Positions 9,509 to 42,111 of a stretch of 42,177 nt of DNA are shown here, in pieces. The translations under genes and the position numbers were made by a program. The DNA comes from Eubacteriales bacterium (GTDB taxonomy: Bacteria > Bacillota > Clostridia > Acetivibrionales > JANLFN01), in assembly GCA_024655885.1 (NCBI GenBank), contig JANLFN010000020.1:1-42177 (forward strand), given 5' to 3'. Each line of letters starts with the position of its first letter. Positions within the stretch are counted from its first letter, which is position 1. The notes beneath the pieces are model-generated. The model made no database searches and was not told the DNA's origin. It saw only the letters and a list, made by a program, of their open reading frames with translations.

Positions 9509-10015
9509 ATCCCTTATTGCTCTTTGAAAAATTACCGGCAAAGGCTCGCTTGTAAGCCTTAAAAGCCGTACATATCCAGCAGCTCAAATACGTTAGCTGT
9601 TCAGCCGATGAAACGGGAAGCGACATTGGTAAACACGCCAAGACAGCCTGCGGGCATTTTTTACCCGTCAAAACGATGGCATCAAAGGCTATGAGCGAGA
9701 AATGTTTGACCATAAAACAATCTGTGGTGGATTGTTTCGCCAGGATCTGAACAGCCTACAATGATACTCCTGCATAGTCTAGGTTGAGTCCCAGAGTGCA
9801 GCCCGGAGGTTCTCGGGGAGGTGGAATTCCTGTGATGCCTGCTGACCACAGGCAGTTTGAGCTGTTGCCCCGGTGCTTGGGAAGCAGTGGCAAATATAGC
9901 ACAGGATTAAGATTGATAACAAGCTTAACCGCTTTGATATCAGAAACTATGCAGCGGAACTCAAATCCGCTGCATCCTTGTGGTATTAAAGCAAAATGTA
10001 AAGGGGGATTTAACC
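9509..10015. other. Structured, apparently non-coding region upstream of the recombinase block
   Basis: No gene with a start and ribosome-binding site is visible in these ~500 bases. A 64-codon open stretch at 9556-9750 has no start codon and may be a decayed gene. The part from about 9770 to 9980 is richer in G+C and full of hairpins: CCTGTG/CACAGG around 9828-9851, and a perfect 10-bp stem with arms 9949-9958 and 9966-9975 around a 7-base loop, just before the ribosome-binding site of the next gene. It lacks the T run of a terminator, so it may be a structured leader or recombination-site DNA. Confidence 0.4.
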
Positions 10016-21688: not shown

Positions 21689-22456
21689 ATGACGGGCTAT
21701 AAACAACTTGCGCTGCTTGGAGCGTTTTCATTTTCTGATGTTGAAGCTCTAACCGGTAATAAAAAAACTGCTTATTCGCTTCTTTACAGATTAATGAATA
21801 AGGGACTTGTGAAGAAGGTTAGAAGCAACTTATATACATGTGTGAATGTTGCAACAGGAGAAGTTATAGCTTCTAGGTACCAGATAGCCTGTGCATGCAA
21901 TAATACTGCCTATTTATCACATCACACAGCCTTCGAATATTACGGAATAGCAAACCAGGTATTTTATGAAGTATATGTGTCTTCCGACACCAGATTCAGA
22001 GATTTTGAGTTTGAAGGAATTAAATATAAATATGTTGCTTCAAAGTTAAGTAAGGGTATAATACAGCCTAAAAATACCCGGGGTATAAGAGTAACAGACA
22101 TGGAGCGTTCTGTTGTTGATAATATAAAGGACTTGGAAAAAATAGGTGGTCTTGAAGAATTGCTAAATTGCCTTTCGTTAATACACTATTTAGATCCTGA
22201 AAAGCTTATAAATTATTTAGATGGCTATAATATACAGGCACTTTATCAAAAAACAGGCTTTATTCTGGAGCATTATATGCATGGAATGCAGTTGACAACT
22301 GAATTTATAGATTACTGTAAGAGTAAAATAGGCAAAAGCACCCGATATTTACTCAAGGAATCAATACATACCGGTATATATAATAAGAAATGGAGATTAA
22401 TTGTGCCGGAAGGCCTATTCGATTTAACTGAGCAAGGTGGTGGTGAACTTGTCTGA
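21689..22456 (+). CDS. abiEi: AbiEi-type antitoxin and autorepressor
   Basis: The 255-residue protein has an N-terminal winged HTH (FSFSDVEALTGNKKTAYSLL, then MNKGLVKKVRSNLY) and the AbiEi C-terminal domain (LSHHTAFEYYG, VTDMERSVVDNI). In AbiE systems the antitoxin represses the operon and neutralises the AbiEii nucleotidyltransferase toxin in a type IV manner. AAGTGAGG precedes the ATG. Its end overlaps the toxin start by 14 bases. Confidence 0.88.
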   Translation: MTGYKQLALLGAFSFSDVEALTGNKKTAYSLLYRLMNKGLVKKVRSNLYTCVNVATGEVIASRYQIACACNNTAYLSHHTAFEYYGIANQVFYEVYVSSDTRFRDFEFEGIKYKYVASKLSKGIIQPKNTRGIRVTDMERSVVDNIKDLEKIGGLEELLNCLSLIHYLDPEKLINYLDGYNIQALYQKTGFILEHYMHGMQLTTEFIDYCKSKIGKSTRYLLKESIHTGIYNKKWRLIVPEGLFDLTEQGGGELV

Positions 22457-23405
22457 TTATGATAAAACCTTTATTGGAAAAAGGGCGGAAGAATTAGGCT
22501 TTGTTCGCGATACGCTGGAAAAGGTTTACCGCCTTGCGGATATTCTTGAGTATCTTAATACGAATCCACTGCTCAAGGAGAGCCTCGCATTAAAAGGTGG
22601 TACAGCGATTAATCTTACAATTTTTAATCTGCCAAGATTATCTGTCGATATTGATCTGGATTACCTAAAGACGGATAGCAGGGAAGAAATGCTGAAAAAC
22701 AGAGAGATAATAAATACAACTGTAACAAGATATATGCAGTCACAGGGCTATAAGCAAAGCCCAAAAACAAAAACACCGCATAGCCTTGATTCCTGGGTAT
22801 ATGAATATATCAATGCCGGAGGAAATAAGGATATTATCAAGCTGGAAATCAATTATTCATTACGGGCCCATATACTTCCGCCTGAAGAACGGCCTATTAT
22901 AACAGAGCATTTTTCCAGTGAATATAAAGTAAAGACTCTGGCAGCATTAGAGATATTTGGAAGTAAGCTTAATGCCTTGATCAATAGAGCAGCGCCGAGA
23001 GACTTATATGATGTTGCCAATATGATTAAATTTGGCTTATTTGATGAAAGTGAACTGCCGTTGCTTCGAAAGTGTGTAATATTCTATGCTGTGGTATCTG
23101 CAAAAGAGCTAAGAAAGACGTTTGATACAAAAGCCATTGATGCATTAAGTCATCATAGAATTAAAACTGATTTGCTGCCTGTAATTAACCGAAAAGAGAA
23201 ATTTGATCTGGAAGCAGCAAAGAAAACTGTAAAAGAATACATTAAAAATCTGATGACTCTATCCGGAGAGGAACAAGAGTTTATTGAGTGTTTTGAACGT
23301 AAGGAATATATACCGGAACTCCTTTTTGAGGATGATAGTATAGTATCCAGAATTAAAGTGCATCCAATGGTTCTATGGAAAATAAGAGAACTTGGTGATT
23401 TATAA
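22443..23405 (+). CDS. abiEii: AbiEii-type nucleotidyltransferase toxin
   Basis: The 320-residue protein is a DUF1814-type nucleotidyltransferase with GGT at residues 52-54, the R-x-S-x-DID strand with D69 and D71, and a helical C-terminal half containing APRDLYDV. Family members transfer nucleotides to tRNA and stop growth, aborting phage infection. Three consecutive GTG codons (22437, 22440, 22443) are possible starts; the last gives the usual MNLSDYDK-like beginning and leaves AAGGTGG upstream. It is coupled to the antitoxin. Confidence 0.88.
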   Translation: MNLSDYDKTFIGKRAEELGFVRDTLEKVYRLADILEYLNTNPLLKESLALKGGTAINLTIFNLPRLSVDIDLDYLKTDSREEMLKNREIINTTVTRYMQSQGYKQSPKTKTPHSLDSWVYEYINAGGNKDIIKLEINYSLRAHILPPEERPIITEHFSSEYKVKTLAALEIFGSKLNALINRAAPRDLYDVANMIKFGLFDESELPLLRKCVIFYAVVSAKELRKTFDTKAIDALSHHRIKTDLLPVINRKEKFDLEAAKKTVKEYIKNLMTLSGEEQEFIECFERKEYIPELLFEDDSIVSRIKVHPMVLWKIRELGDL

Positions 23406-25591: not shown

Positions 25592-25864
25592 CAAGAAATC
25601 ACAGGCGTAAGAGATGAGTATAGCGGATTTCGAGTGTCATTAAGTACAGTATATCCACCAATGGAAGTGCCGCTGAAGTTAGACATCACTACGGGCGATA
25701 GGATTACACCGACGGACGTCGTCTATGAATTCAAGCTTCTTTTGGAAGACAGGAGCATTCAGGTATTGGAATATTATCTGGAAACTGTTATGGCTGAAAA
25801 GCTTGAAACAGTGAAATCACGAGGTGACCAGAATACAAGGCCAAGAGAAATCATTATTATATAA
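25592..25864 (+). pseudogene. Remnant of a second AbiEii/AbiGii-type nucleotidyltransferase
   Basis: Read from the stop at 25589, the frame gives QEITGVRDEYSGFRVSL, then YPPMEVPLKLDITTGDRITP, then LETVMAEKLETVKSRGDQN, and stops at 25864 where the family's RDFYDIY segment should follow. This is the middle of a DUF1814 toxin, with both the catalytic N-terminus and the C-terminal half missing. It differs in sequence from the intact AbiEii 2 kb upstream, so it is a separate, lost system. Confidence 0.75.
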
Positions 25865-26769: not shown

Positions 26770-26798
26770 TTGACTGCATTGATTGACTGTGTTATTTT
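26770..26798 (+). promoter_or_regulatory. Promoter of the rsgA leader
   Basis: TTGACT (26770-26775) and TATTTT (26793-26798) are 17 bp apart. It would start a transcript near 26805 that reads through a leader and the hairpin at 26958 before rsgA. Confidence 0.5.
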
Positions 26799-26817
26799 TA
26801 GTATGAAAAAATAATTG

Positions 26818-26973
26818 ATGAGGTGTCTGTTTGGAGATTGTTCTGTAAGGAACACGAATTGCATAGAAGCTAAAAAACGATGGCTGATCGTTTTATTTGG
26901 CATGCAATCATGTTTCATACAGGACTATGACAAACAGTACTTTTATAAGAACTGCTTGGGCATAGTTATGTGA
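26818..26973 (+). CDS. Putative leader peptide controlling rsgA
   Basis: A 51-codon open frame (beginning MRCLFGDCSVRNT and ending NCLGIVM) ends at TGA 26971-26973, inside the loop of the terminator hairpin. A ribosome finishing this frame would sit on the 5' arm and prevent the hairpin. It lacks a good ribosome-binding site, and a 5-codon alternative (TTG 26831 to TAA 26848) has GAGGTG upstream, so which peptide is made is unclear. The layout resembles the attenuated leaders of ribosome-protection genes such as tet(M). Confidence 0.4.
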   Translation: MRCLFGDCSVRNTNCIEAKKRWLIVLFGMQSCFIQDYDKQYFYKNCLGIVM

Positions 26974-26987
26974 CTATGCCCTTTTTA
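26958..26987 (+). terminator. Attenuator hairpin before rsgA
   Basis: GGGCATAGT (26958-26966) pairs perfectly with ACTATGCCC (26973-26981) around a 6-base loop, followed by T5. It sits only 26 bases before the rsgA start and inside its leader, so it fits attenuation better than simple termination. Confidence 0.75.
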
Positions 26988-27012
26988 TTATCGAATAACG
27001 AGGTGAAACATC

Positions 27013-28092
27013 TTGAATCAATTAATCCGTTATGGCGCAAGTGAGCGTTATTTTGCCGAGGCGACTCTTTATCCCATGTTATTTCTGGCGAGAGTAGTTT
27101 CGCAATATAAATACCTGTATAAGCTCGTCACCGAGAGCGGGGAATGCCTGGCTGAGATTTCCGGCAAATTTCGCTATGAGGCGACTGGGCTATCTGAGTA
27201 TCCTGCGGTGGGTGATTTTGTTATGGTAGACCGCATCCAAGGCAGTTCCGGAAATGCCATTATCCATCGGGTGCTGACAAGGAAAAGCGTCTTTGAACGT
27301 ACAGCTGTGGGCGACGAGCATCAAATACAGGTGGTTGCAGCCAACATTGATACGGTATTTATCTGCATGTCTTTGAACAACGACTACAACCTGAATCGTC
27401 TTGAACGGTATCTCTCGGTGGCTTGGAAGAGCCGGGCAACCCCAGTAGTCGTGCTGACAAAAGCTGACCTCTGTGAAGATTTACCCAGCGCTTTGACCGA
27501 AATCTCAGTCGTGGCTCCCGGTACAGATGTGGTCGTAACTTCAAGCCACGATCGGGCTTCCTGCGACAAACTGTTGCCTTGGCTGCAACCGGGGATGACT
27601 GCGTCTTTTATCGGTTCATCTGGTGTAGGGAAATCCACGCTGATCAATCGACTGATGAGAGAAGAGCTTCTGACAACGTCGGAAACCCGGGAGGATGATA
27701 AGGGCAGGCATACCACTACCCGCAGGGAGCTGCTTATTCTGCCGCAGGGTGGTATCGTTATCGATACGCCCGGTATGCGGGAGCTTGGCGTTGAGTCGGT
27801 CGATCTATCCAAATCATTTTCCGACATAGAGGACTTGGCAAGCAAATGCCGTTTTCGGGATTGTGCTCATTCCGCAGAACCCGACTGCGCCGTCCGGCAG
27901 GCACTCGAAGAAGGAACACTAAATCCCAGGCGTCTGGAAAGCTATCAGAAGTTGAAGCGTGAAGCCCGGTATGACGGCCTTTCCTTTAAACAGGTTGAAA
28001 CCCAAAAGCTCAATACTATGTTCGAGAGCGTGGGCGGCATGAAAAAGGCAAGAAAGTTTATCCGCCAAAATAATAAACGAAAAGGAGAATAA
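27013..28092 (+). CDS. rsgA: Ribosome small-subunit-dependent GTPase RsgA (accessory paralogue)
   Basis: The 359-residue protein has the RsgA architecture: N-terminal OB fold, circularly permuted GTPase with TKADL (G4) before GSSGVGKST (G1) and DTPG (G3), then a zinc motif (CRFRDCAHSAEPDC). RsgA acts in 30S maturation and ribosome release. It is about 50 residues longer at the N-terminus than many chromosomal RsgA proteins. The TTG start at 27013 has GAGGTGA upstream. The codon use is more GC-rich than in the flanking defence genes, and it lies among element cargo, so it is probably a transferred second copy. Its leader carries an attenuator. It ends 2 bases before a short frame that leads into the GNAT gene. 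Confidence 0.9.
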   Translation: MNQLIRYGASERYFAEATLYPMLFLARVVSQYKYLYKLVTESGECLAEISGKFRYEATGLSEYPAVGDFVMVDRIQGSSGNAIIHRVLTRKSVFERTAVGDEHQIQVVAANIDTVFICMSLNNDYNLNRLERYLSVAWKSRATPVVVLTKADLCEDLPSALTEISVVAPGTDVVVTSSHDRASCDKLLPWLQPGMTASFIGSSGVGKSTLINRLMREELLTTSETREDDKGRHTTTRRELLILPQGGIVIDTPGMRELGVESVDLSKSFSDIEDLASKCRFRDCAHSAEPDCAVRQALEEGTLNPRRLESYQKLKREARYDGLSFKQVETQKLNTMFESVGGMKKARKFIRQNNKRKGE

Positions 28093-28141: not shown

Positions 28142-28789
28142 ATGAGCGCAAATTTGCGATTGGAGCAGCCAGCGGTCAATCGTAACGTGGAAGAACTTAC
28201 GAGGGAAGCATTTTGGAACCGTCATGTGCCAGGCTGCAACGAGCACTACCTGTTGCATATCATGCGGGATTGTGAAGCGTTTATCCGGGAACTTGATGTC
28301 GTTGCGGAAATCGATGGAGAAATCGTCGGGAACATCGTTTACACGAAGGCTAAGATACTCGGCGATGACGGGATAAGCCGCGAGGTATTAAGCTTTGGTC
28401 CGGTATCGGTGTTGCCTGCGTTTTGGGCGAAGGGCATCGGCAGCGCGTTGATTGAATACACCATTGCCCGCGCAAAAGAATCAGGCCACCGCGCGATATT
28501 GATATATGGCGACCCCGAGTATTATAAGAGATTTGGCTTTATTCCCGCTGAAACGTTTGGTATCGGAACGGCGGATAACATGTACTCGGAACCCCTTCAG
28601 GCACTGGAATTGTGGGAGGGGGCGCTCAGAGGCTGTAATGGGAGGTTTTTAGAGAATGCTGTATACGATGTAGACGAAGATGCAGCCGCAGAATTCGATA
28701 AGACTTTTCCCCCAAAAAAGCTTCAGGATGGTTTGCCTAGCCAGGAAAGGTTCCGGTACTTATCGGGATTGAGGCGACCGAGGGGGTAA
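28142..28789 (+). CDS. GNAT-family N-acetyltransferase
   Basis: The 215-residue protein has the GNAT core: VAEIDGEIVGNIVY, then FGPVSVLPAFWAKGIGSALI with the acetyl-CoA loop, then ILIYGDPEYYKRFGF. The substrate is unknown. The best ribosome-binding site (AAGGAG 28083-28088) serves an ATG at 28095 in a different frame, which reads 16 codons and stops in ATGA at 28142-28145. In the gene's own frame the sequence just upstream of 28142 reads HDNKLVRN, as in full-length relatives, so a small indel near 28098-28108 may have shifted the original start. Translation now may depend on reinitiation at 28142. Confidence 0.82.
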   Translation: MSANLRLEQPAVNRNVEELTREAFWNRHVPGCNEHYLLHIMRDCEAFIRELDVVAEIDGEIVGNIVYTKAKILGDDGISREVLSFGPVSVLPAFWAKGIGSALIEYTIARAKESGHRAILIYGDPEYYKRFGFIPAETFGIGTADNMYSEPLQALELWEGALRGCNGRFLENAVYDVDEDAAAEFDKTFPPKKLQDGLPSQERFRYLSGLRRPRG

Positions 28790-30145: not shown

Positions 30146-31156
30146 ATGGCAAGAGCAGATTTGCTATGTGAATTGATAAAAAACGGTCTTATTGGTGATA
30201 ATGTTAATTTTAGAAAAGCAGCTGAAGCTATTTGCGCTGAAGAACGCGCGAAGCAACATGGTGTTTTAGCAGATAAAATTGAAGAATTATTAAAAATGTC
30301 TAGCCGACCAACAGTAAAAGAAAGTACTTCGCCTGTCATTATGAAAAACGGGGTGAGTGAACAGTCTTTATTTTGGGAGAAAACTCCTCGCAAAAGACTG
30401 GACCGATTAGTTTTACCTTCAAATGTGATTGACTTATGTAAAGGTTTAATTGAAGAGCAAACACGTGCAGATTTATTGCGTTCATATGGCGTAGAACCAA
30501 GAAACAAACTTTTATTGATTGGGCCTCCCGGGAACGGAAAAACCTCTTTAGCTGAAGCAATCGCCGAATCGCTGATGTTACCATTCCTTATTGTTAGGTA
30601 TGAAGGCATAGTCGGGGCATATCTTGGAGAGACAGCTAGCCGACTTTCCAAGCTTTTTGAATATGTGAAGACCAGAAAATGTGTGCTGTTTTTTGATGAA
30701 TTTGAAACACTAGGCAAAGAACGTGGTGATGTTCACGAGACAGGTGAGATTAAAAGGGTTGTCAGTTCACTCCTGCTTCATATAGACTCCCTACCAAGTT
30801 ATGTTGTAGTCATCGGGGCAACAAACCATGAGAATTTGCTCGATAAAGCAGCTTGGCGGAGATTCCAATTGAAATTAGATTTACCTCGACCAACTCGTTC
30901 TAATTTAGAAAAATGGTTTTCTATGTTTGAAAAGGAAAAGGATTTTGACTTTGGTATTGAGCCTAGTACTTTAGCTAAACGTACGCTAGGTTATAGCTAT
31001 GCTGAAGCAGAAGAACTAGCTTTGGAGATATACCGGCAGTATATTTTGCAACTACCTAATGCCTCGACAAAAACTATTTCAGAAAAAGTATTAAAACTTT
31101 GGAGCACTCAGCGAAAAAGCATAGATACATGTTCTCAAGAGGAGGCTGATGAATAA
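30146..31156 (+). CDS. AAA+ ATPase paired with a subtilase
   Basis: The 336-residue protein is a single-domain AAA+ ATPase of the FtsH/Cdc48-like classic clade: Walker A GPPGNGKT at residues 126-133, Walker B FFDE with D184 and E185, sensor-1 GATN, and an Arg-finger region (AAWRRFQLKLDLPRP). The first ~90 residues are helical and may bind the partner or substrate. GGGAGG precedes the ATG. Its TAA shares one base with the ATG of the subtilase (TAATG), so the two are translated together. AAA+/subtilase pairs recur in bacterial defence islands. The ATPase probably unfolds or gates substrate for the protease, or senses the trigger; this is inference from pairing. Confidence 0.88.
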   Translation: MARADLLCELIKNGLIGDNVNFRKAAEAICAEERAKQHGVLADKIEELLKMSSRPTVKESTSPVIMKNGVSEQSLFWEKTPRKRLDRLVLPSNVIDLCKGLIEEQTRADLLRSYGVEPRNKLLLIGPPGNGKTSLAEAIAESLMLPFLIVRYEGIVGAYLGETASRLSKLFEYVKTRKCVLFFDEFETLGKERGDVHETGEIKRVVSSLLLHIDSLPSYVVVIGATNHENLLDKAAWRRFQLKLDLPRPTRSNLEKWFSMFEKEKDFDFGIEPSTLAKRTLGYSYAEAEELALEIYRQYILQLPNASTKTISEKVLKLWSTQRKSIDTCSQEEADE

Positions 31157-33720
31157 TGCCGGAAAGACCTTTAATTCTATTTCCAACACCGGAGCAGGCT
31201 GAACGTATCAAAAGAAAAATGTATACACCTCCGCCTGCATACCCTTCAATAGAGAGACAATATGACAGGCTTAATCCTTATTTCAGTGTTTTAAGGCAAG
31301 CTTTTCAACAAAAGGCTATTGCTATTCAGAATTCACCTGTAGGATTAAATCCGGAATTTGCTCTCGTTTTTGAAGTAGTGGGTTCTGTTGAGAATTTTTA
31401 TACTGCAGTTAAAAGAGTTGAAGGAATGGAGTGGATGTTTGAAGCATTTACAGATGAAATTGAACCGGACAATGATTTTTATAACATAGATGATTCAGGC
31501 CAGAGGAAAGAAAGTAATTTATCTGGAAGGGTTTACTGCGTAATGTCAAACCAAGAGGCTATGAATCAATTGCTTTCTTTGTGGGACAGATATGTTGCTG
31601 GTGAAACTAATGTATTTAAGAGCGGTTTTGCCGGCTTAAAAGATATTTTTGTACATATAAAAACAATTAGACGATGGGGTCCAGAGGACAGAATCTATGA
31701 AACTAATATTATGGAATATTGGAAGGAAAGCCTCGAAATAGCAGGAAATCAGGAGGTTCCTTTCGAGATTGAACTATTTTTTAGGAATGATCCTACTAAG
31801 CGCAGGGTTGCTTATGAAACAGTAAGACGAGCTGTTGTTGAACTTGGGGGAATCGTACGCAGCCAATGCGAAATTGAATCAATTAACTATCATTCAATGC
31901 TTGTTGTTCTTCCAAGGCAGCAAATTCAATTACTCGTAGATACTTATGATCAAATTTCCATTGTTACTATTGATGATATTATGTTTTTTAGACCCGTTTC
32001 ACAAGCTGTATTAAAAGGATATGAGGATAGTTCAGCTTTGGATACAGATTCAGATCGAACAGATATTCAACCCGATGCCGATCCCATAATTGGTATTTTT
32101 GATGGCATGCCAGTTCAAAATCATAGACTTTTATCGGGAAGGTTGATAGTGGACGATCCGGACAATTATGAAAATAATTATTTAGAAAAATATCGATGTC
32201 ATGGAACAGCTATGGCTTCTTTGATAATATATGGAGATTTAAGCAGAAATGATCAGGTACATAATCGTAAGGTTTATTTTCGGCCCGTATTAAAACCCAT
32301 TTTAGATTTTAGAGGAAATGCAATTGAACGAGTGCCAACAGATATAATCTTTGTTGATGTTATTCATCGTGCTGTAAGGAGACTGTTTGAAGGGGAAGGA
32401 GCAACTCCTGCGGTAGCCCCTACTGTAAAAGTCATTAATATTTCTATCGGAGATCCGGTAAGACAACTTACAAGTATAATGAGCCCTCTTGCACGGCTGT
32501 TAGATTGGTTAAGTTTTAAATACAAAGTTTTATTTATTGTGAGTGCTGGAAACCAGAATACCGGAGGATTAGATATAGGAATTTCCTTTGATGAATTTAA
32601 GAGGTTGACACAGGAACAACGAAATGAGCGAATCTTTTCATATCTGAAAGATGAGATACGTAATCTTCGCGTTTTATCTCCTGCTGAAAGCATAAATAGT
32701 TTAACTATAGGAGCCTTGTATACAGATGCATGTCAGGTGACGGAAAACGAAAGACAGGCAGCAGCTGTAAGTGATGGCTTGCCAAGCCCGGTATCTTCAT
32801 TCGGACTGGGCTATAATCGTATCATAACCCCTGATTTGTACTACTATGGGGGTAGAAAGTTTTTAATACGTTCAATAGATGGTGGACTTAGATGGCCTAT
32901 AAGTGGCAGGGAGCCAGGATGTAAGGTTGCAGCTCCATATGCAGATGGTTCCGAATCAGGACAAGCCTTTTCCTTTGGGACGAGTGACGCTGCTGCTCAG
33001 ATTACTCATGAAGCTGGTAAATGTTACGATGTCCTCAATGAAATATTCTTTAATGAAACTGGTCATTCGATTCCGAATGATTATACGGCTATATTATTAA
33101 AAGGTATGTTAACTCATGGAGCATCATGGGATACTTGTTCAGATGAATTATCGAAGCTGACACAGTTGCCTCCTAATAAACTTCATCGTTGGTTGGGAAA
33201 TGGCGTCCCGGATATTTCTCGTGTGATTGAGTGTACCGATAGAAGAATCACTTTGATTGGTTTAGGGGGGTTAAAGCCAGAGGAGGCGCATGTATATACT
33301 CTGCCGTTACCGTTTGATTTTTCAACACAACTTGTAAAAAGAAGGTTAACAGTAACATTAGCATATTTTTCACCTATATCCCCAGCCAAACAGAGATATC
33401 GTACAGCACAAATTTGGTTTGAGATTGAGCAGCCACATAAGCTGTTTCCTACCCGGCAGAATACAGATTGGAACAGTGTTCGTAGAGGAACTCTTCAGCA
33501 TGAGATTTTTTCAGGAGATAATGCAGTTGTGTGGGATACTGACGACAGTATAAAGATAAAAGTTAATTGTAAAAAAGATGCTGAAAATTGCAAAGAAACA
33601 GTCGCATACGGTTTGTTTGTAACTTTCGAAGTAGCAGAAGGTCTGGATGTAGATGTTTATACAAGTATCGTTAATAAAATACGGCAAGCGGTTCCTATCA
33701 CTACACTTGGCCGAGCATAG
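31156..33720 (+). CDS. Intracellular subtilisin-like (S8) serine protease
   Basis: The 854-residue protein has a complete S8 triad: D316 in IGIFDGMP, H349 in CHGTAMA and S610 in GTSDAAA, with the oxyanion N466 in SAGNQ. There is no signal peptide, so it acts in the cytosol. About 300 residues precede the protease domain and may form a regulatory or sensor part; about 200 follow it and look beta-rich. The unusual 260-residue distance between His and Ser comes from insertions around residues 370-430 and 480-590. It starts on the last base of the ATPase gene. A defence role by cleaving host or phage proteins on infection is inferred from the coupling and neighbourhood. Confidence 0.88.
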   Translation: MPERPLILFPTPEQAERIKRKMYTPPPAYPSIERQYDRLNPYFSVLRQAFQQKAIAIQNSPVGLNPEFALVFEVVGSVENFYTAVKRVEGMEWMFEAFTDEIEPDNDFYNIDDSGQRKESNLSGRVYCVMSNQEAMNQLLSLWDRYVAGETNVFKSGFAGLKDIFVHIKTIRRWGPEDRIYETNIMEYWKESLEIAGNQEVPFEIELFFRNDPTKRRVAYETVRRAVVELGGIVRSQCEIESINYHSMLVVLPRQQIQLLVDTYDQISIVTIDDIMFFRPVSQAVLKGYEDSSALDTDSDRTDIQPDADPIIGIFDGMPVQNHRLLSGRLIVDDPDNYENNYLEKYRCHGTAMASLIIYGDLSRNDQVHNRKVYFRPVLKPILDFRGNAIERVPTDIIFVDVIHRAVRRLFEGEGATPAVAPTVKVINISIGDPVRQLTSIMSPLARLLDWLSFKYKVLFIVSAGNQNTGGLDIGISFDEFKRLTQEQRNERIFSYLKDEIRNLRVLSPAESINSLTIGALYTDACQVTENERQAAAVSDGLPSPVSSFGLGYNRIITPDLYYYGGRKFLIRSIDGGLRWPISGREPGCKVAAPYADGSESGQAFSFGTSDAAAQITHEAGKCYDVLNEIFFNETGHSIPNDYTAILLKGMLTHGASWDTCSDELSKLTQLPPNKLHRWLGNGVPDISRVIECTDRRITLIGLGGLKPEEAHVYTLPLPFDFSTQLVKRRLTVTLAYFSPISPAKQRYRTAQIWFEIEQPHKLFPTRQNTDWNSVRRGTLQHEIFSGDNAVVWDTDDSIKIKVNCKKDAENCKETVAYGLFVTFEVAEGLDVDVYTSIVNKIRQAVPITTLGRA

Positions 33721-33957: not shown

Positions 33958-36900
33958 ATGTCCGAAATAGGTAAACGAGGTAGTTCTCGACGAAAAGGTG
34001 ATGAATACCAAGACCTTACTGCTCTGCGGCTGGCCTTGGAAGCATATATTGACCGTAAACCCTTCGAAATGTTTTTGGAGTACGAAAAATCTGGCAACCT
34101 TGATGACATCGTCCTCTTTCAGGGATCTGATATCTTTCCCCATCAAGTGAAGTATGCTGTTAACTCGCTCGAAAACTACGAAATGGTTGACTTCCTTAAT
34201 CCAGATAGTCCAGTAAGCATTATGAAATTTGCTGCGAGCTGGCAATTTTTAAAACAGCGGTTCCCTGATCGCAGGCTTACTGTATGTTTATGTTCAAACA
34301 GGGGTTTGGATAGCACTCTCTTTGATATTGTGAATCCGGATGGGACATTTAAACAAGAGGTAATCGAAGACCGCAAACGTGGTAATGCTAAAAAATTGAG
34401 ATCGGATCTGGCATCGGCCTCAGGTCTTAATGCAGACTCATTCGCGGCATTCTTGGCAGACTTCAAGTTTGTACTGCGACAGCCGACTCTGTCGGAGCTG
34501 GAGCAATATATTCGAACGGTTCTTCTCGACAAGGAATTGGGGCTATCTGATGACACGGTCTTCTTAGACCTAAAGGAAACCATTAAGAACAACGCAATTT
34601 TCTCTCGAGAGGAAATTACCGCCCAATCTATTGACAGCCTCCTAGAGCGACTCCAGAGCAAGTTGCTCATTCCCCAGGTATTCCCCGTCAACCAAGACCA
34701 CTTCGTGGAACAAAAGTACCTTTCAGAGCAACTAGACAGGGTGTTGCCAAATATTAATGGAGGATATCTGATTGTTACCGGACTTCCTGGCAGCGGGAAA
34801 TCAACATCGCTGACTATGTACTTCGATGCGCTTAGTAGTTCTACGTATGAAGTGTTCAGATACTACTGTTTCGTAGGAGTCAATGATAACGCCCAAAGGA
34901 TGCGTGTTCAGGCCGAAAGCCTCCGTGCCAACCTTCTAAGTGAGTTCCACCGGAGATATCCGGATGTACTCAAAAGACGTTTTGATTACAGCGAACGTAA
35001 CTTCCTCGAATGCCTGACAACACTGGCCAGGTTCTTTGTAGATCATGGTCGCAGATTTGTTATTCTCCTTGATGGATTGGATCACGCTGAACGACTTGAG
35101 CCGGAAATCAGAGAAACGGTGATCTCGGCATTGCCCTCAAGTGTCCCTGAGGGTGTCACTATAGTTGTTGGTACACAGGAATTACATAAGTGGCCATACT
35201 TTCTTAAGCGAGCGAGAGAGTGCCCGGATAGCCATATCAAGATGCCGCTATTCTCAGAAGCCGAGACGAGAGACTATCTGGAAAATAAGCGGGGTATTTC
35301 AGGCCTGACACATGCTGACATTGCAGAGATTCACAAGAGGTGTGAAGGCCTACCTCTATATTTGCGGTATGCGGTTGAAATCCTCATTTCAAGTGAGTCA
35401 TTGACGGAGGCCATTGCTTCTCTAACTCCGGCCTCGGGTGGAGATATTCGGAATTACTACGGACTACTCTGGGACGAGTTTGAGAGATTTGGTATGGGGG
35501 AGGCAAAGCACCTTTGTGCAGCTATGGCTTGTATGCGCTTTAGTGTGCACAGGGATGAACTCTATAAGATCGCGGCACTTAATCGGCCAGCATTTGAAGA
35601 TGCCTACAAATGCATCTGCCACTTGCTCCGCGATTCTGACGGCAGATTGACTGTGTTCCACAACAGCTTCCGTGAGTTCGTGATTAGTCAGGTTTCTGAC
35701 GGCTGGATTAAAGAAATAAGAAATAATATCTGTACCTTCTTAAAGGATAACAAGAATTCCCCTCGCTGGTTTGGCCACGTTTTTAAATACTGCTATGATG
35801 CAGAAGATTACACATATGTCCTTGATGAAGTAAATGAAGAATTCGTTGATCGTGCTTTACTGCATTGCCGTCCATCTGCAGAAATTATGGATGCAATACA
35901 CTGGGCTGTTGAAGCCGCATTCAATCGGCAAGATATCGTTCAACTGAGTCGTCTTGGGGCATTGAAGTATAGAACAGGTGAGCGCCTTGAGTATAATCTC
36001 AATCGAGCCATACTTGTAGATGCTCTTCTCGCTCTGGGGCGAGAACAAGACGTAATCACTTTTGTGTATTCGCCAGAGGCGAATCATTGGCTTGTGGAGA
36101 GTCGCACCTCGCTTGCAGTCATGTATAGGTTGGCCGAAGCTGGGAAATTTGAGCTTGGACGGCGTCTCTTTGATGTTTTCACAAATGAGTTTCGAGGTAT
36201 TCGTTCTGACAATGCAGATGACAAACGGTCGCAAGTAGTTGGCATAGCACGATGCTTAGGTATTTATAAGGATAATCAGGCGCGTCCGTTGCGATGGCTT
36301 GCTCAATTCAACTTCTCCCTCGGAATTCTGGAGCAACAGGACTTATATTCCCCAAGCTATAGTCCACACTTAGATGCCTACATCGATACACTTGTTAAAT
36401 TTGGCTTTTCGGAAAAGTGGAAGCGGCTCAAGCGTGTGAAAAGAATATTCCCAAGCAGCTTGGTGCGGTATCTGTTGATCCGTGCTCTTGCTCGCTATAA
36501 CCTAATCGAGGAGCTACGGACTGCCGTGTCTGAGTATTGGGAACAGGAGCAGCCTTCTGGTAATGTCGAGCTTGCTTTTTATGCCGCCAAGGCGGGCATG
36601 CCGGCTTCGATAGTGACTGCGATTGCAGGCACTATCGAAGCCCCAAAGACGGTGGCACCAGACTACGTTTCCCCAAGCAATCCGATGCTCAGACACTATG
36701 TATACACTTTCATTGTTGTTGCTTATGAGGGTAACGAGGAAGCCTATGCAAGCCTCTTCGCCACGGTCGGCACAGCTCGAACACTTTGGAACGCGGCTCT
36801 TAGACATTTGCTCGTGGCCTGCCACTGCATCGGGCAGTCGTTTCGAGGTACTGATCATGATTGGTATGAAGAAGCGCGGCAAAGTATTAACATTCTGGTT

Positions 36901-39900
36901 CATACTGAACAGGGGGATGGCGAAAGAATTTTTGAGTCGATTGAGCTTATTAGAGAAGTACTACAGCTGTCCATTGGCCTTCTAACTGAGCAGGTACAGA
37001 AGTATTTTCCTGAGCGTCTGAGCGAATGGATCATATGCTTGGGTTCCCTACGTGACTCTATACTATGGAACACACATTTCGGAATAGGGGAATCCCGTCA
37101 AGATTATGGTTTTGAGCTTCGGATTTGGGAAACCCTTGCGAGAATTCCGCAAGTGGGCACCAGGCTCGCTCCAATTTTGAGAAGTTGTGCCGAAACCTAT
37201 GAGAAGTCAACCCTGCTTAAAGGTGGTTCCCGTTCGGATCATTTCATTTGGCTTTCAGCGATTATGGCTAAGTGTGGTATGCGTGATGATGCCGAAAAGT
37301 GGCTCCGCTATGGCATACGCTCATCGCAAATATATGGGTATCACAAGGATATCACCCTTTTACACTTGATCGACATCCTTAATCTCGTCAATCAGCGTCA
37401 GCCTAAGTTGGCACTTGAACGGTGTGCTCGCGTGCTGTCAATGGTGGACTGGATGCCACATCTTACGGATGGCAGGGAGACCAAGTGGTTTCCCCAGAAA
37501 GCTTTCGCGGCCGTTTTAAAAGTCAATCGGCAGGCCGCGTTTGATTTGCTAACTCATTTCTCACGGTCTATAGCAAGATGGAAGATGCAGGATTGCCTTG
37601 AGGAATACATTCTTAGTATGGAAGAGGGCGACCCCGAGTACCTCTGGTGTCTCACGGAGCTCTTTGCCAATCACTTTAGCGAAGATGGTAGGCATTGTAA
37701 TCAAATTATGGAAACCAGGCAGCACATCGTCGATTTGGTGCACGAATCCTGTTCAGTAGAAATCTACAATGAATTCGAAAACCGCTTCCGACGCTTCATA
37801 CTAACGGAGATCACACCTAGGCACTGGCCCGAAGACCTGAAGAAAGAGCTCGGCATCCCTGGTAGCACTAATGTTAAGAATGACAATGCTGACTCATGGG
37901 CTAAGCCGCCATCAGAGTTCAAACTGGATGGTGAAAGCATAACCATTGAAGGCATAGCTGAGAAATGTCGGGTATCATTTACTGAGTTTCTGAAGACGCT
38001 TGACAAGCTGAAGAACCAGAATGAGCATTTTTACGAACGGGATCTAGTAAATACCTCTTTAAGACATCACATAATGACTGCCAAGACATTAGAAGACCTC
38101 ATATCGATCAAGGAATATGCTGAGTCTGAAGGTCGCTGGCAGGATGCAACTGTAATTGAACAATTAGCTGAACGTTTTGTGGAATTCGGAGATCATGCTA
38201 ACGCCATATCGTGCTTCGGGATAGCATACGCTTGCTATGGAAGCTGGTCCCGTTGGCGAGATAACAGAAAATATCTGGCGGCAGTAGCGGCAAGGGACAG
38301 ACAAACTGCGAAGAAGTTTGTCCTAAAGGAATGCTATGAATCAACATGCGGTTCCGGTGGTGGCTATGATACACCGCCTATTGCGGCTTCTGGACTGGAT
38401 GTGCTGGATGAACCTCAAATGCTTGAGGATGTATTCAATGACTTCCTGACGCATTGTGAAAGCATGTTTGCGCAATTGCCTAAGAATGATAACTATGCAT
38501 GGCTGAAAGAGTACAAGGAACCGTCCGCCGATGCCAACCAGCTCATTCTTAATTTTGTTGTGGACGAGTTGTCGACTTCTGAGATTGACCACGGCGAGAG
38601 ATTGATCAGGGCAGTGACGAAGTTGGCGATTGCCAGACCCGATGAGGCAATACCTGTGCTTATTACCAGGATGGTATCAGCTTCCGGAAGGATTCTGCGT
38701 CGTTTGCTGACGGTATTTTACTGTCTTGCTACCCATTGTCCCCAGCTCTTGGTGCCGCACCAGCAGGTGTTCGCCCAAATTCTTGAGAGGGAGGACTTTT
38801 TCTGCCGTCAAACAGTTCTGCGTATTCTTCGCCGTGTGGACGAAGCTTCTCCTCTTGAAGCTTCCGTTAACAGTTCTGTCCAGCGTATCGATAGGAATTA
38901 CTCAGATGCCATATATTATTCGTCATATATACTTCCGTCTTGTTCTACTCCTGAATTCAAGCATTTTCTAAAACGAAACACCCTGTTTGATTTTTCCAAG
39001 CAGGTAGAGTTGATGGAGAAAATTCTTCAAGTACCTCCGGGGAGTCTTGTGGCTGCCATTGAAGAACGACTGATTGCCCCAAAATGGTCGATAGATGATG
39101 AGAGAGACCGTGTAAAAGATGACTGGTACGGCCATGTACATCCGCAGGGCTGGCCTGTTGTCTGGATTACAACCGAATTTCAGGAACTTGTTACAGAGAC
39201 TCTTTGGGGCATACTGGACGAAGTGGCTATAAAGCTGAAGATGAGCAAAGAACAGATTAACTGGCTCTGGCAGACAATCCAGCCTGCCGATCCGGAATAT
39301 GTTTTCCGTGGTTTAATGCCGCGCCCTCTAGACATCGAGCCACTTAATGTCCATGACAAAGAGGCCTGGTTCAGCGAGCTGGACGCGTTCAAATCTCTGG
39401 AAATTGGAGATACAAGAATCCAGGGTGATGATGGAGAATGGATAACAATATTTGAGAAGCGGAGAATGGCTCAGGAAGAAACGTACAATGTTCCATATAG
39501 ACAAGAGATCTCCCTGCAAGGATTTCTGATCCCTCAACAGGTGTACGGTGGATCCTATAGGTTAGATGAACTTGAATTATGGACCGAGAGAATCCTCCCA
39601 AATTCCTCAATGTCTGTCACAATTAAACAGACTCAGACAGAACTATCTGGTAGAGGACACAGAGTCTTGGAAAAGTCAGACGAATGTATCCCGATTATCG
39701 CTGAGCACGAGAATCCTTTAACTTTTTTGGGGTACTTAAATGTGTGTACTCTGACCTCTTTCATCATAAAGGAATTCAATCTGTCGTTTGAAGGGTTGAA
39801 TCTTCTCAGAAATGGCGAAGTTGTTGCCAAGTATGAGGCATGGCAGGAAGGCTACCAGGATGAGTGTTACACACGGGAGAAACTGTCACTTGGCTTTAGA

Positions 39901-40062
39901 CTTCGGGTGCGCCAAGACTTCTTAACCGAGATTTGTCGTTGTTATCGCAAATTACTGTGTATTTGTATTGATGAAAAACGGGAGTATTACGAGTCTATTT
40001 ACCGTCCAGAACCTAATGATAGTCGATATTCAAGACGATATGTATTGTATTATTTGAGCTAA
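33958..40062 (+). CDS. Giant STAND NTPase with N-terminal Cap4-like nuclease (Avs-like)
   Basis: The 2034-residue protein begins with a Cap4/DUF4297-type PD-(D/E)xK-like nuclease (RRKGDEYQDLTALRLALEAY, then the GNLDDIV strand and the HQVKYA catalytic Gln-x-Lys). A STAND/NACHT-type NTPase follows, with Walker A GLPGSGKS at residues 275-282 and Walker B LLDGLDHAE with D372 and D375. The remaining ~1400 residues are helical repeats, expected to be the sensor. The layout matches Avs-type anti-phage sensors, in which repeats recognise a phage protein and oligomerisation activates the nuclease. I cannot say which Avs class, or which ligand. GCAGGAGG precedes the ATG. Base composition is clearly richer in G+C than the genes on either side, suggesting separate acquisition. 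The 237 bases before it hold no gene that I can support. Confidence 0.82.
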   Translation: MSEIGKRGSSRRKGDEYQDLTALRLALEAYIDRKPFEMFLEYEKSGNLDDIVLFQGSDIFPHQVKYAVNSLENYEMVDFLNPDSPVSIMKFAASWQFLKQRFPDRRLTVCLCSNRGLDSTLFDIVNPDGTFKQEVIEDRKRGNAKKLRSDLASASGLNADSFAAFLADFKFVLRQPTLSELEQYIRTVLLDKELGLSDDTVFLDLKETIKNNAIFSREEITAQSIDSLLERLQSKLLIPQVFPVNQDHFVEQKYLSEQLDRVLPNINGGYLIVTGLPGSGKSTSLTMYFDALSSSTYEVFRYYCFVGVNDNAQRMRVQAESLRANLLSEFHRRYPDVLKRRFDYSERNFLECLTTLARFFVDHGRRFVILLDGLDHAERLEPEIRETVISALPSSVPEGVTIVVGTQELHKWPYFLKRARECPDSHIKMPLFSEAETRDYLENKRGISGLTHADIAEIHKRCEGLPLYLRYAVEILISSESLTEAIASLTPASGGDIRNYYGLLWDEFERFGMGEAKHLCAAMACMRFSVHRDELYKIAALNRPAFEDAYKCICHLLRDSDGRLTVFHNSFREFVISQVSDGWIKEIRNNICTFLKDNKNSPRWFGHVFKYCYDAEDYTYVLDEVNEEFVDRALLHCRPSAEIMDAIHWAVEAAFNRQDIVQLSRLGALKYRTGERLEYNLNRAILVDALLALGREQDVITFVYSPEANHWLVESRTSLAVMYRLAEAGKFELGRRLFDVFTNEFRGIRSDNADDKRSQVVGIARCLGIYKDNQARPLRWLAQFNFSLGILEQQDLYSPSYSPHLDAYIDTLVKFGFSEKWKRLKRVKRIFPSSLVRYLLIRALARYNLIEELRTAVSEYWEQEQPSGNVELAFYAAKAGMPASIVTAIAGTIEAPKTVAPDYVSPSNPMLRHYVYTFIVVAYEGNEEAYASLFATVGTARTLWNAALRHLLVACHCIGQSFRGTDHDWYEEARQSINILVHTEQGDGERIFESIELIREVLQLSIGLLTEQVQKYFPERLSEWIICLGSLRDSILWNTHFGIGESRQDYGFELRIWETLARIPQVGTRLAPILRSCAETYEKSTLLKGGSRSDHFIWLSAIMAKCGMRDDAEKWLRYGIRSSQIYGYHKDITLLHLIDILNLVNQRQPKLALERCARVLSMVDWMPHLTDGRETKWFPQKAFAAVLKVNRQAAFDLLTHFSRSIARWKMQDCLEEYILSMEEGDPEYLWCLTELFANHFSEDGRHCNQIMETRQHIVDLVHESCSVEIYNEFENRFRRFILTEITPRHWPEDLKKELGIPGSTNVKNDNADSWAKPPSEFKLDGESITIEGIAEKCRVSFTEFLKTLDKLKNQNEHFYERDLVNTSLRHHIMTAKTLEDLISIKEYAESEGRWQDATVIEQLAERFVEFGDHANAISCFGIAYACYGSWSRWRDNRKYLAAVAARDRQTAKKFVLKECYESTCGSGGGYDTPPIAASGLDVLDEPQMLEDVFNDFLTHCESMFAQLPKNDNYAWLKEYKEPSADANQLILNFVVDELSTSEIDHGERLIRAVTKLAIARPDEAIPVLITRMVSASGRILRRLLTVFYCLATHCPQLLVPHQQVFAQILEREDFFCRQTVLRILRRVDEASPLEASVNSSVQRIDRNYSDAIYYSSYILPSCSTPEFKHFLKRNTLFDFSKQVELMEKILQVPPGSLVAAIEERLIAPKWSIDDERDRVKDDWYGHVHPQGWPVVWITTEFQELVTETLWGILDEVAIKLKMSKEQINWLWQTIQPADPEYVFRGLMPRPLDIEPLNVHDKEAWFSELDAFKSLEIGDTRIQGDDGEWITIFEKRRMAQEETYNVPYRQEISLQGFLIPQQVYGGSYRLDELELWTERILPNSSMSVTIKQTQTELSGRGHRVLEKSDECIPIIAEHENPLTFLGYLNVCTLTSFIIKEFNLSFEGLNLLRNGEVVAKYEAWQEGYQDECYTREKLSLGFRLRVRQDFLTEICRCYRKLLCICIDEKREYYESIYRPEPNDSRYSRRYVLYYLS

Positions 40063-40497: not shown

Positions 40498-41436
40498 ATG
40501 AAGTTCTTTGTGGGGGTTACTGATAACAATTGGTATAATTTTTTAGCAAACAGCAGACCTGATGAAGCGAATTTCTGGCGACCTGGAGGGGGACAAGCTT
40601 TTAAGGCAATAGAGCCTAATGACCTATTTCTATTTAAATTGCATAATCCATTAAACTTTATTGCCGGGGGAGGTTTTTTTGTCAGGTATGTATCTTTGCC
40701 TGTTTCTTTAGCTTGGGAAGCATTTGGAAATAAGAACGGTACAGGGGATTATCACAGCTTTCTGAATGCAATTCACAAATACCGCAAGACTGACCAAAGA
40801 AGCGAACCTGATCCGGTTATCGGATGTATTATTCTAACATCTCCATTTTTCTTTAATCAGAATGAAGGGATACCGGTTCCGGAAGACTGGAGTCCTAATA
40901 TTGTTCAAGGCAAGACTTATGATACCGGCACATTGACTGGCAGGCGATTATACCAACAGGTACAGGAAAGGTTAAATAGAAGTGCATCAGCAGATAATGC
41001 AAGCTGCATAGTGTGTGAAGATAATGCAGCAAATAGATACGGTTCAGGCCAGATTGTTTATCCCCGAATCGGACAAGGCACCTTCAAAGTACTGGTAACA
41101 GAGGCTTATCACAGACGTTGTGCGGTAACGGGAGAAAAGACATTACCGGTACTTGAAGCATCGCACATTAAACCTTATTCACAGGAAGGCCCTCATAGCA
41201 TAACGAATGGGCTGCTTTTAAGAAAGGATCTGCATGCGTTATTTGATAGAGGATATATAACCATAGATGAGGATTTGCATATTGAAGTCAGTAAAAGAAT
41301 TAAAGAAGATTATGGTAATGGTCGAGAGTATTATGCCTATCATGGAAAGAAACTTGCAGTAATTCCGGATACAATGTACGAGAGGCCGGATCCGAAATTT
41401 TTAAGATGGCACAATGAAAATGTATTTTTGACGTAA
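40498..41436 (+). CDS. HNH endonuclease with N-terminal PUA/EVE-like domain (McrA-type)
   Basis: The 312-residue protein has an N-terminal ~150-residue domain that begins FFVGVTDNNWYNFL and contains LFKLHNPLNFIAGGGFF, resembling PUA/EVE-type modified-base readers. A C-terminal HNH nuclease follows (CAVTGEKTLPVLEASHIKPY, then NGLLLRKDLHALFDRGYI). The arrangement fits a type IV-like restriction enzyme that cuts DNA with modified bases. The start at 40498 follows AAGGAG. It has its own repeat-borne promoter, shared in sequence with the next gene. Confidence 0.82.
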   Translation: MKFFVGVTDNNWYNFLANSRPDEANFWRPGGGQAFKAIEPNDLFLFKLHNPLNFIAGGGFFVRYVSLPVSLAWEAFGNKNGTGDYHSFLNAIHKYRKTDQRSEPDPVIGCIILTSPFFFNQNEGIPVPEDWSPNIVQGKTYDTGTLTGRRLYQQVQERLNRSASADNASCIVCEDNAANRYGSGQIVYPRIGQGTFKVLVTEAYHRRCAVTGEKTLPVLEASHIKPYSQEGPHSITNGLLLRKDLHALFDRGYITIDEDLHIEVSKRIKEDYGNGREYYAYHGKKLAVIPDTMYERPDPKFLRWHNENVFLT

Positions 41437-41662: not shown

Positions 41663-41685
41663 AGTTTTAAGAGGTTGAGGTGTAC

Positions 41686-42111
41686 ATGAGCGATATAAAG
41701 CTTTTTAAAATAAATGGCGCTGTTGAGGAACTTCCGGCCACTGCAGTTAGTATTGAAAAGGAACTTCAAAACCTTATAGAAAAAAATATGGAAAAATTCT
41801 TTGGGGTCCGCTTTCTTTGTTCGGAGTATTCCACAACCCATGGAGGAAGAATCGACTCACTGGGGATCGATGAAAATAACTGTCCGGTAATTTTTGAATA
41901 CAAGAGAGCCAGTAATGAGAATGTAATGAATCAAGGTCTTTTTTATCTTGACTGGTTGCTTGATCATAAAGCCGACTTTGAATTGTTAGTAATGAAGATG
42001 CTTGGAAAGGAATACTCTGACAAATTGGATTGGAGCATGCCCCGGCTTATTTGTGTAGCTGGCGATTTCACGAAATATGATGAACATGCTGTAAAACAGA
42101 TGCCTAAGTAG
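41686..42111 (+). CDS. DUF5655-like PD-(D/E)xK protein, probably shortened
   Basis: The 141-residue protein resembles DUF5655-associated nuclease-like domains: SDIKLFKI at the start, GVRFLCSEYSTTHGGRIDSL with the first acidic residue, and VIFEYKRA carrying the E-x-K of a PD-(D/E)xK site. Relatives run on after the DEHAVKQ segment with an IELIRY-type strand; here the frame ends in MPK and TAG. It may be a truncated or frameshifted copy. I chose ATG 41686, with GAGG 5 bases upstream, over GTG 41680. The 66 bases after it to the window end hold nothing I can name. Confidence 0.7.
   Translation: MSDIKLFKINGAVEELPATAVSIEKELQNLIEKNMEKFFGVRFLCSEYSTTHGGRIDSLGIDENNCPVIFEYKRASNENVMNQGLFYLDWLLDHKADFELLVMKMLGKEYSDKLDWSMPRLICVAGDFTKYDEHAVKQMPK

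Follow-up and report, generated by a model that had tools for sequence, protein, structure and literature searches.

The window (the whole analysed stretch of 42,177 nucleotides, a contig of a Eubacteriales bacterium from the class Clostridia) carries an extra copy of rsgA on its forward strand at 27013..28092. The gene starts with TTG at 27013 and encodes a protein of 359 amino acids, which was assigned by a Pfam match (RsgA_GTPase, 6e-49), alignment, and predicted fold. The protein has the GTPase domain, the zinc-site residues, and the fold of the RsgA family, and the conserved columns of its alignment (A1) are, on a reading of the motifs, presumably the GTPase and zinc-site residues. Its AlphaFold model (mean pLDDT 80) has RsgA chains as best PDB matches (7boi_W, 2rcn, and 5no2_Z), and several of the RsgA chains matched by the model sit on the 30S subunit. 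Three strong RsgA genes were found in the genome, together with a fourth, marginal Pfam match (30.6 bits). The Pfam RsgA_N model matches the housekeeping copy but not the window copy. The housekeeping gene belongs to a separate operon, in which it overlaps a preceding PASTA-domain (prkC-like) gene and is followed by rpe- and thiN-like genes. A second extra RsgA, a 55% relative, is encoded on contig 60 behind a leader of the kind described below as type A (L002, by eye). As in the case of HflXr, the window gene is thus an additional paralogue beside a housekeeping copy.

Downstream of rsgA a gene for a GNAT acetyltransferase is found (28142..28789, forward strand), which occurs in the same order in one relative (L035) and may be part of the rsgA unit. 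The other neighbours scanned around extra rsgA genes vary from locus to locus, as expected for a gene that moves, which the extra rsgA may do. The first-pass annotation of the window, made from the sequence alone, had suggested that this RsgA copy may protect ribosomes from toxins such as the AbiEii toxin nearby. The nearest AbiEii match is a 76-aa fragment (25634-25864), a fuller copy lies at 22437-23405, and nothing ties rsgA to AbiEii. Moreover, AbiEii was not among the 12 neighbour proteins scanned in three relatives with the same leader (L036, L037, and L039). Protection from AbiEii therefore found no support at the window or among these neighbours, and this proposal was dropped. Elsewhere in the window, positions 30146-33720 encode a pair with strong PADLOC matches to the IetA/IetS anti-phage ATPase-protease system; NCBIfam names this family IteA/IteS, and the window pair scores below its cut-off. 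At 33958-40062 a 2034-aa protein is encoded whose residues 9-233 resemble a PDDEXK/endonuclease effector and whose residues 219-741 resemble Avs1b (an AAA/NACHT-type ATPase), which makes it a probable defence protein. Genes for an HNH endonuclease (40498-41436) and a PDC-S18/NucS-like protein (41680-42111) are also found; the stretch from IetA/IetS to the NucS-like gene gives the right end of the window the appearance of a defence cluster. A pemK RNA leader (RF02913) was matched above the gathering score at 9758-9835.

The region upstream of the extra rsgA contains a series of regulatory elements, all on the forward strand. A promoter-like sequence, TTGACT-17-TATTTT with a TG preceding the -10 element, is found at 26770..26798. 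The pattern scan alone gives no evidence for it, being near the shuffle mean (2 sites found, shuffle mean 1.7); TTGACA-, TTGACT-, or TTGTCA-type promoters were seen by eye at the same place in four relatives (L036, L037, L038, and L039). A ribosome binding site, GAGGTG (26820..26825), precedes a five-codon leader frame, TTG-GAG-ATT-GTT-CTG-TAA (26831..26848), which encodes fMEIVL and stops at UAA. This frame forms part of the 5' arm of P1, a long stem (26828..26936) which was obtained from the consensus fold of four leaders and is assigned as an anti-antiterminator. An antiterminator (26918..26972) is built from the 3' arm of P1 together with the terminator's 5' arm. Its pairings are UACA/UGUG, GACUAUG/CAUAGUU, CAA/UUG, and CAGU/ACUG, and it was identified by folding and by its energy relative to shuffled sequences. 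The intrinsic terminator (26958..26986) precedes rsgA and was found both by a terminator scan (1 found, shuffle mean 0.3) and in the consensus fold. Its stem at 26958-26981 reads GGGCATAGTT-ATGT-GACTATGCCC, with nine Watson-Crick pairs and one G-U pair, and T5 follows at 26982-26986. Just past the terminator lies the ribosome binding site of rsgA, GAGGTGA (27000..27006). The promoter-like sequence, the 9-bp hairpin with its T5, the ribosome binding site of rsgA, and the better one on the five-codon frame had already been pointed out in the first-pass annotation and are all present, the hairpin with the one G-U pair in addition. The long stem and the antiterminator were absent from it and were found here by folding.

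Further comparison revealed the same leader in intact form in three relatives, which are L036 (bacterium MS4, Amazonia massiliensis, 75% RsgA identity), L037 (Soleaferrea massiliensis, 70%), and L039 (a Clostridia MAG, 67%). Four intact leaders of the exact window type were therefore available, the window included. In the two relatives nearest by RsgA the leader is damaged: most of the P1 stem is missing in L038 (84% RsgA identity), and the terminator end alone remains in L035 (92%). In L006 and L007 (64-68% identity) the leader was not visible by eye. The window and L035-L039, six rows in all, form one clade on the protein tree (SH-aLRT 93), which was built by a quick method without rows L033, L045, and L113 and is poorly rooted by a single housekeeping row with an extreme branch. 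The damage in the two nearest relatives would fit a decayed leader in which regulation has been lost and rsgA is expressed by constitutive read-through. However, all elements of the window leader are intact and strong, which makes decay a quite improbable account of the window itself.

The four intact leaders also distinguish between two candidate leader frames. The first-pass annotation had proposed a 51-codon frame (26818..26973) starting at ATG 26818 and ending at a TGA in the terminator loop, so that translation into the loop would disrupt the hairpin. The frame does exist, its TGA (26971-26973) is positioned at the loop, and its openness speaks in its favour, as only 65 of 2000 shuffles stay open equally long after an ATG. 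However, its predicted anti-SD pairing is merely -1.8 kcal/mol, as opposed to -10.8 kcal/mol for the five-codon frame (TTG 26831) and -11.8 kcal/mol for rsgA. Furthermore, in L036, L037, and L039, on which this comparison rests (the L038 row being excluded), the ATG is absent and an in-frame stop occurs early. The 51-codon frame is thus not conserved in homologous loci, whereas the five-codon frame is. The long frame was rejected as the leader on these grounds, and such a role for it is highly improbable. In each of the four intact leaders the short frame consists of TTG, four codons, and UAA, encoding MEIVL, METVL, MVIVL, and MVIVR. Its SD, start, and UAA are found at fixed places while the sense codons vary, and with its own ribosome binding site it is translatable as judged from the sequence, although TTG is a weak start codon, which counts against the model. 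The constancy of these three elements amid changing sense codons also argues against a terminator that is controlled by a ligand or protein, as in a riboswitch or by an RNA-binding protein, with the short frame being incidental. The long conserved stem and the stability of P1 alone are compatible with such control. However, no Rfam family was matched over the gathering threshold in the window leader, and nothing but tRNAs was matched in 20 related loci; in addition, other rsgA leaders share a uORF and not the RNA of the window type. Control of this kind is therefore regarded as improbable.

The folding of the leader was compared with that of shuffled sequences. For positions 26803-27030 the predicted folding energy is -75.1 kcal/mol, whereas shuffled versions average -45.1 (z = -6.8) and none of 200 reaches so low a value; positions 26820-26941 by themselves give a z of -7.3. 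P1, the antiterminator, and the terminator each fold in all four intact leaders, with energies of -37 to -42 (P1 alone), -17 to -23, and -14 to -18 kcal/mol, respectively. P1 and the antiterminator exclude each other in these folds, as do the antiterminator and the terminator. In the consensus fold, two pairs of P1 and one pair of the terminator have changed on both sides, and in L037 the tip of the antiterminator is re-paired using other bases. Covariation among the four sequences is modest (covariation term -1.56), and 6 of the 38 consensus pairs are broken, each in one sequence. When the upstream sequence was shuffled, antiterminator energies as low were obtained in 3 of 400 cases for the window, 4 of 400 for L036, 2 of 400 for L037, and 18 of 400 for L039. 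By mean pairing probability the window antiterminator does not stand out, with 43 of 300 shuffles reaching its value.

The effect of a ribosome was then modelled in silico. Without a ribosome, the predicted pairing between the terminator 5' arm and the antiterminator segment is 0.00 in the window, L036, and L037 and 0.78 in L039. With a ribosome over the start or stop codon it is 0.77-0.87 in all four leaders, as computed on RNA extending to the terminator loop. In L039 the antiterminator is thus predicted even without a ribosome, and no terminator is seen in the minimum-energy fold of its full-length leader. When the complete terminator is included and a ribosome is placed, the equilibrium still favours the terminator state over the antiterminator state in the window, L036, and L037 (-44.3 vs. 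-40.7 in the window with the ribosome at the start codon; -47.4 vs. -38.7 in L037). The switch must therefore be kinetic and depend on co-transcriptional folding. Attenuators are usually kinetic switches.

Taken with the comparison of leaders, this folding argues that the region is very probably a ribosome-mediated transcription attenuator with a five-codon leader frame, in which a held ribosome would free the antiterminator and turn rsgA on. By default, the short frame would be translated quickly or not at all, and P1 would close over it. The closed P1 would lock up ACAGGACUAUGACAAA, the terminator would form, and transcription would end before rsgA. If a ribosome were held on the short frame, whether at the start codon, within the frame, or at the UAA, it would instead cover the 5' arm of P1. 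The freed ACAGGACUAUGACAAA could then pair with GGGCAUAGUU to form the antiterminator, so that the terminator would be blocked and the extra RsgA would be made. The likely purpose would be an additional GTPase acting on the 30S subunit when translation is blocked, comparable to the role proposed for HflXr on the 70S ribosome. Comparison and folding hence support the leader-peptide attenuator of the first-pass annotation, with its 51-codon leader replaced by the five-codon one, and induction by perturbed translation follows as the natural inference.

Leaders were also sought before other extra rsgA genes. A protein search of the whole genomes of the class gave matches at 1e-60 in 70 of 391, the source genome included, and a species collection held at least 565 relatives among the candidates; the best 80 loci of the latter were kept, and the set is therefore biased to close relatives. 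Altogether 111 extra-rsgA loci were collected (the window once, as L001), 108 of which have at least 220 bases upstream, and the counts are not independent since near-copies are included (L016 and L078 are identical). The common design, type A, is translational and consists of a uORF containing GGAGG, then CCTCC, and then the rsgA SD GGAGG. An automatic search found it in 57 of the 108 loci, compared with 1 of 1242 other ORFs in the same loci, and in a few of the 57 (e.g., L093 and L095) the frame that was picked is perhaps not the true uORF. The remaining 51 loci were sorted by eye into 8 of type A, 6 of type B (the window type, two of them damaged), 3 of type C, and 5 of type D. In total, some leader was seen in 79 of 108 loci, and no recognisable leader was seen by eye in the other 29, with L055-L114 viewed over 200 bases only. 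Type C (L016, L078, and L107) has a five-codon frame, MSVVR or MSVIR followed by UAA, inside the 5' arm of a long stem, and by eye a terminator-like hairpin with a T-run. A model of the type B leader (R1) matched L107 at 24 bits (E = 0.003) and left L016 and L078 unmatched. Because the stem is nearly palindromic, R1 picks up the opposite strand of the leaders of the window, L036, L037, and L039 as well (19-41 bits), and the L107 match is therefore only a hint. Type D leaders were seen by eye before more distant extra rsgA genes (L029, L031, L032, L033, and L034) and have a uORF and end in GGGC..TATTTTTATGCCC-like stretches. In a plasmid collection, four records were viewed of the 184 that match (from Peptoclostridium, Cetobacterium of the Fusobacteriota, Brevibacillus, and Listeria), and by eye each has a uORF before such an rsgA. 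The Listeria monocytogenes locus (L129) adjoins pnp, and upstream of its position 2495 the extra rsgA follows a uORF, MAIVKMENLIINTGVFYL, with a GGGGG/CTCCC pair (by eye).

Searches with the leaders themselves gave few matches. The window leader DNA matched nothing in plasmids and phages, the L036 and L078 leader DNA matched nothing in plasmids, and no extra RsgA was confirmed in viral contigs. When R1 was used to look for this leader before other genes, it matched 2 of the 391 class genomes, namely the source genome (on both strands) and G397; given the strict filters and 7 candidates per genome, this is a weak negative. The G397 match (L116) was rejected as a chance terminator before an ORF, in a genome with merely a partial, weak RsgA match. 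A strict type A pattern had a single match in the 391 genomes (G391, C5:161936-161973), just before an rsgA match at C5:162010, and is therefore too narrow for judging other genes.

The uORFs of type A have about 18 codons. Among the 40 uORFs that share the most frequent spacing, Glu/Asp predominates at codon -12 (27), Ile at codon -11 (26), and Val/Ala at codon -10 (34). The third base of codon -12 varies most freely; an invariant Glu at codon -6 is forced by the choice of rows and was disregarded. The Glu-Ile-Val of MEIVL may be the same signal, as three shared residues suggest. When the 57 type A leaders were folded with a ribosome mask, the predicted mean accessibility of the rsgA SD was 0.49 with no ribosome, 0.45 with the start codon occupied, 0.02 with the motif occupied, and 0.12 with the stop occupied. 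Access above 0.5 was found in 30 of 57 leaders without a ribosome and in 26 of 57 with a ribosome at the start codon. In L083 and L100 the CCTCC lies inside the uORF, where a ribosome standing on the stop codon would mask it.

Types A and B are thus predicted to respond in opposite ways to an empty uORF and agree solely when the ribosome is held at the start codon. This bears on the alternative that the leader senses a low supply of ribosomes or of 30S maturation, as feedback on the job of RsgA, instead of drug-stalled ribosomes. RsgA acts in 30S maturation, and together with the 30S-bound RsgA structures this would suit such feedback, as would the more open rsgA SD of type A when the uORF is empty or a ribosome is at its start codon. 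However, an empty uORF has the opposite sign in the window design, where P1 and the terminator win (in the window, L036, and L037), and the agreement of the two designs is confined to the start-codon-held ribosome. Feedback on 30S maturation is thus considered unlikely. Under the preferred attenuator model the agreement at the start codon, with the holding of ribosomes there that is reported for tetracycline and retapamulin (PMC12121999), suggests start-codon holding as the most economical common input.

The presence of a comparable leader before most of the related extra copies examined points to an overlooked response to blocked protein synthesis. A broader reading is offered tentatively, in which the extra RsgA would be a so far unrecognised factor of translation stress, widespread in Bacillota, Synergistota, and some Fusobacteriota, and would act on drug- or toxin-blocked 30S subunits as the counterpart of HflXr. 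It would be controlled through short sensor peptides with an E/D-I-V core by two kinds of switch, transcription termination in the window type and SD sequestration in the common type, which agree for start-codon holding only. Antibiotic protection by the extra RsgA is plausible by analogy with HflXr and with a Streptomyces paralogue. Reports on housekeeping RsgA and antibiotics are mixed, and some point away from protection: the loss of S. aureus rsgA is tabled in a review with tolerance to several antibiotics (PMC10117726), and E. faecium RsgA fell under chloramphenicol (PMC12441150). The extra RsgA may also proofread metabolites like CpgA (PMC12445079) or inhibit phages as is reported for E. 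coli RsgA (PMC10475562). If the extra RsgA is made upon stalling, a 30S assembly or checkpoint GTPase would be added to the induced defences against blocked translation, beside ABC-F proteins, rRNA methylases, and HflXr, and many Firmicutes would carry it under an ordinary ribosome-biogenesis annotation. With their very short sensor frames placed in different circuits, the leaders would also form a natural collection from which it could be learned what a ribosome senses within its initial five codons.

The mechanism belongs to a known class. What appears to be new is the target, the family of five-codon leaders, and the wide distribution; no description of a leader before rsgA was found among the matches listed in the open-licence literature. 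The layout resembles that of tet(M), named in the first-pass annotation, in which a leader frame and a terminator precede a ribosome-protection GTPase of another family. In Streptomyces coelicolor, one gene of the RsgA/EngC pair SCO6149 and SCO5211 is named among the WblC-activated genes and the other is not; by the order of the source sentence the activated copy is SCO6149 (PMC7157823). As would be the case here, one RsgA copy is activated beside a paralogue that is not, but control there is by a transcription factor, and a shared RsgA subfamily is not implied. The msrDL leader of msrD is likewise very short (MYLIFM-UAA) and precedes an intrinsic terminator; UAA is prevalent there and present in all four leaders here, and Ile is third-last in both MEIVL and MYLIFM (PMC10314930). 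However, Glu or Val here replaces the Leu, Thr replaces the Ile in METVL, and the msrDL target and drug are an ABC-F protein and a macrolide. In toiL/topAI the uORF is also paired in a long hairpin, several drug classes act, and stalling inside the uORF, the start codon included, opens the switch (PMC12121999). It differs in being a translational switch with Rho-dependent termination in an E. coli toxin-antitoxin operon. A further likeness is found in hflXr/rli80 of Listeria monocytogenes, in which a paralogue of a ribosome-associated GTPase is preceded by a small uORF in an anti-antiterminator region and by alternative antiterminator and terminator structures, and for which mutants show a ribosome-dependent mechanism (PMC6310831). 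The uORF of hflXr encodes 14 aa with an RLR motif, which is absent from MEIVL, METVL, MVIVL, and MVIVR, whereas the window frame has five codons, and HflXr is proposed to split 70S ribosomes whereas RsgA acts on the 30S subunit.
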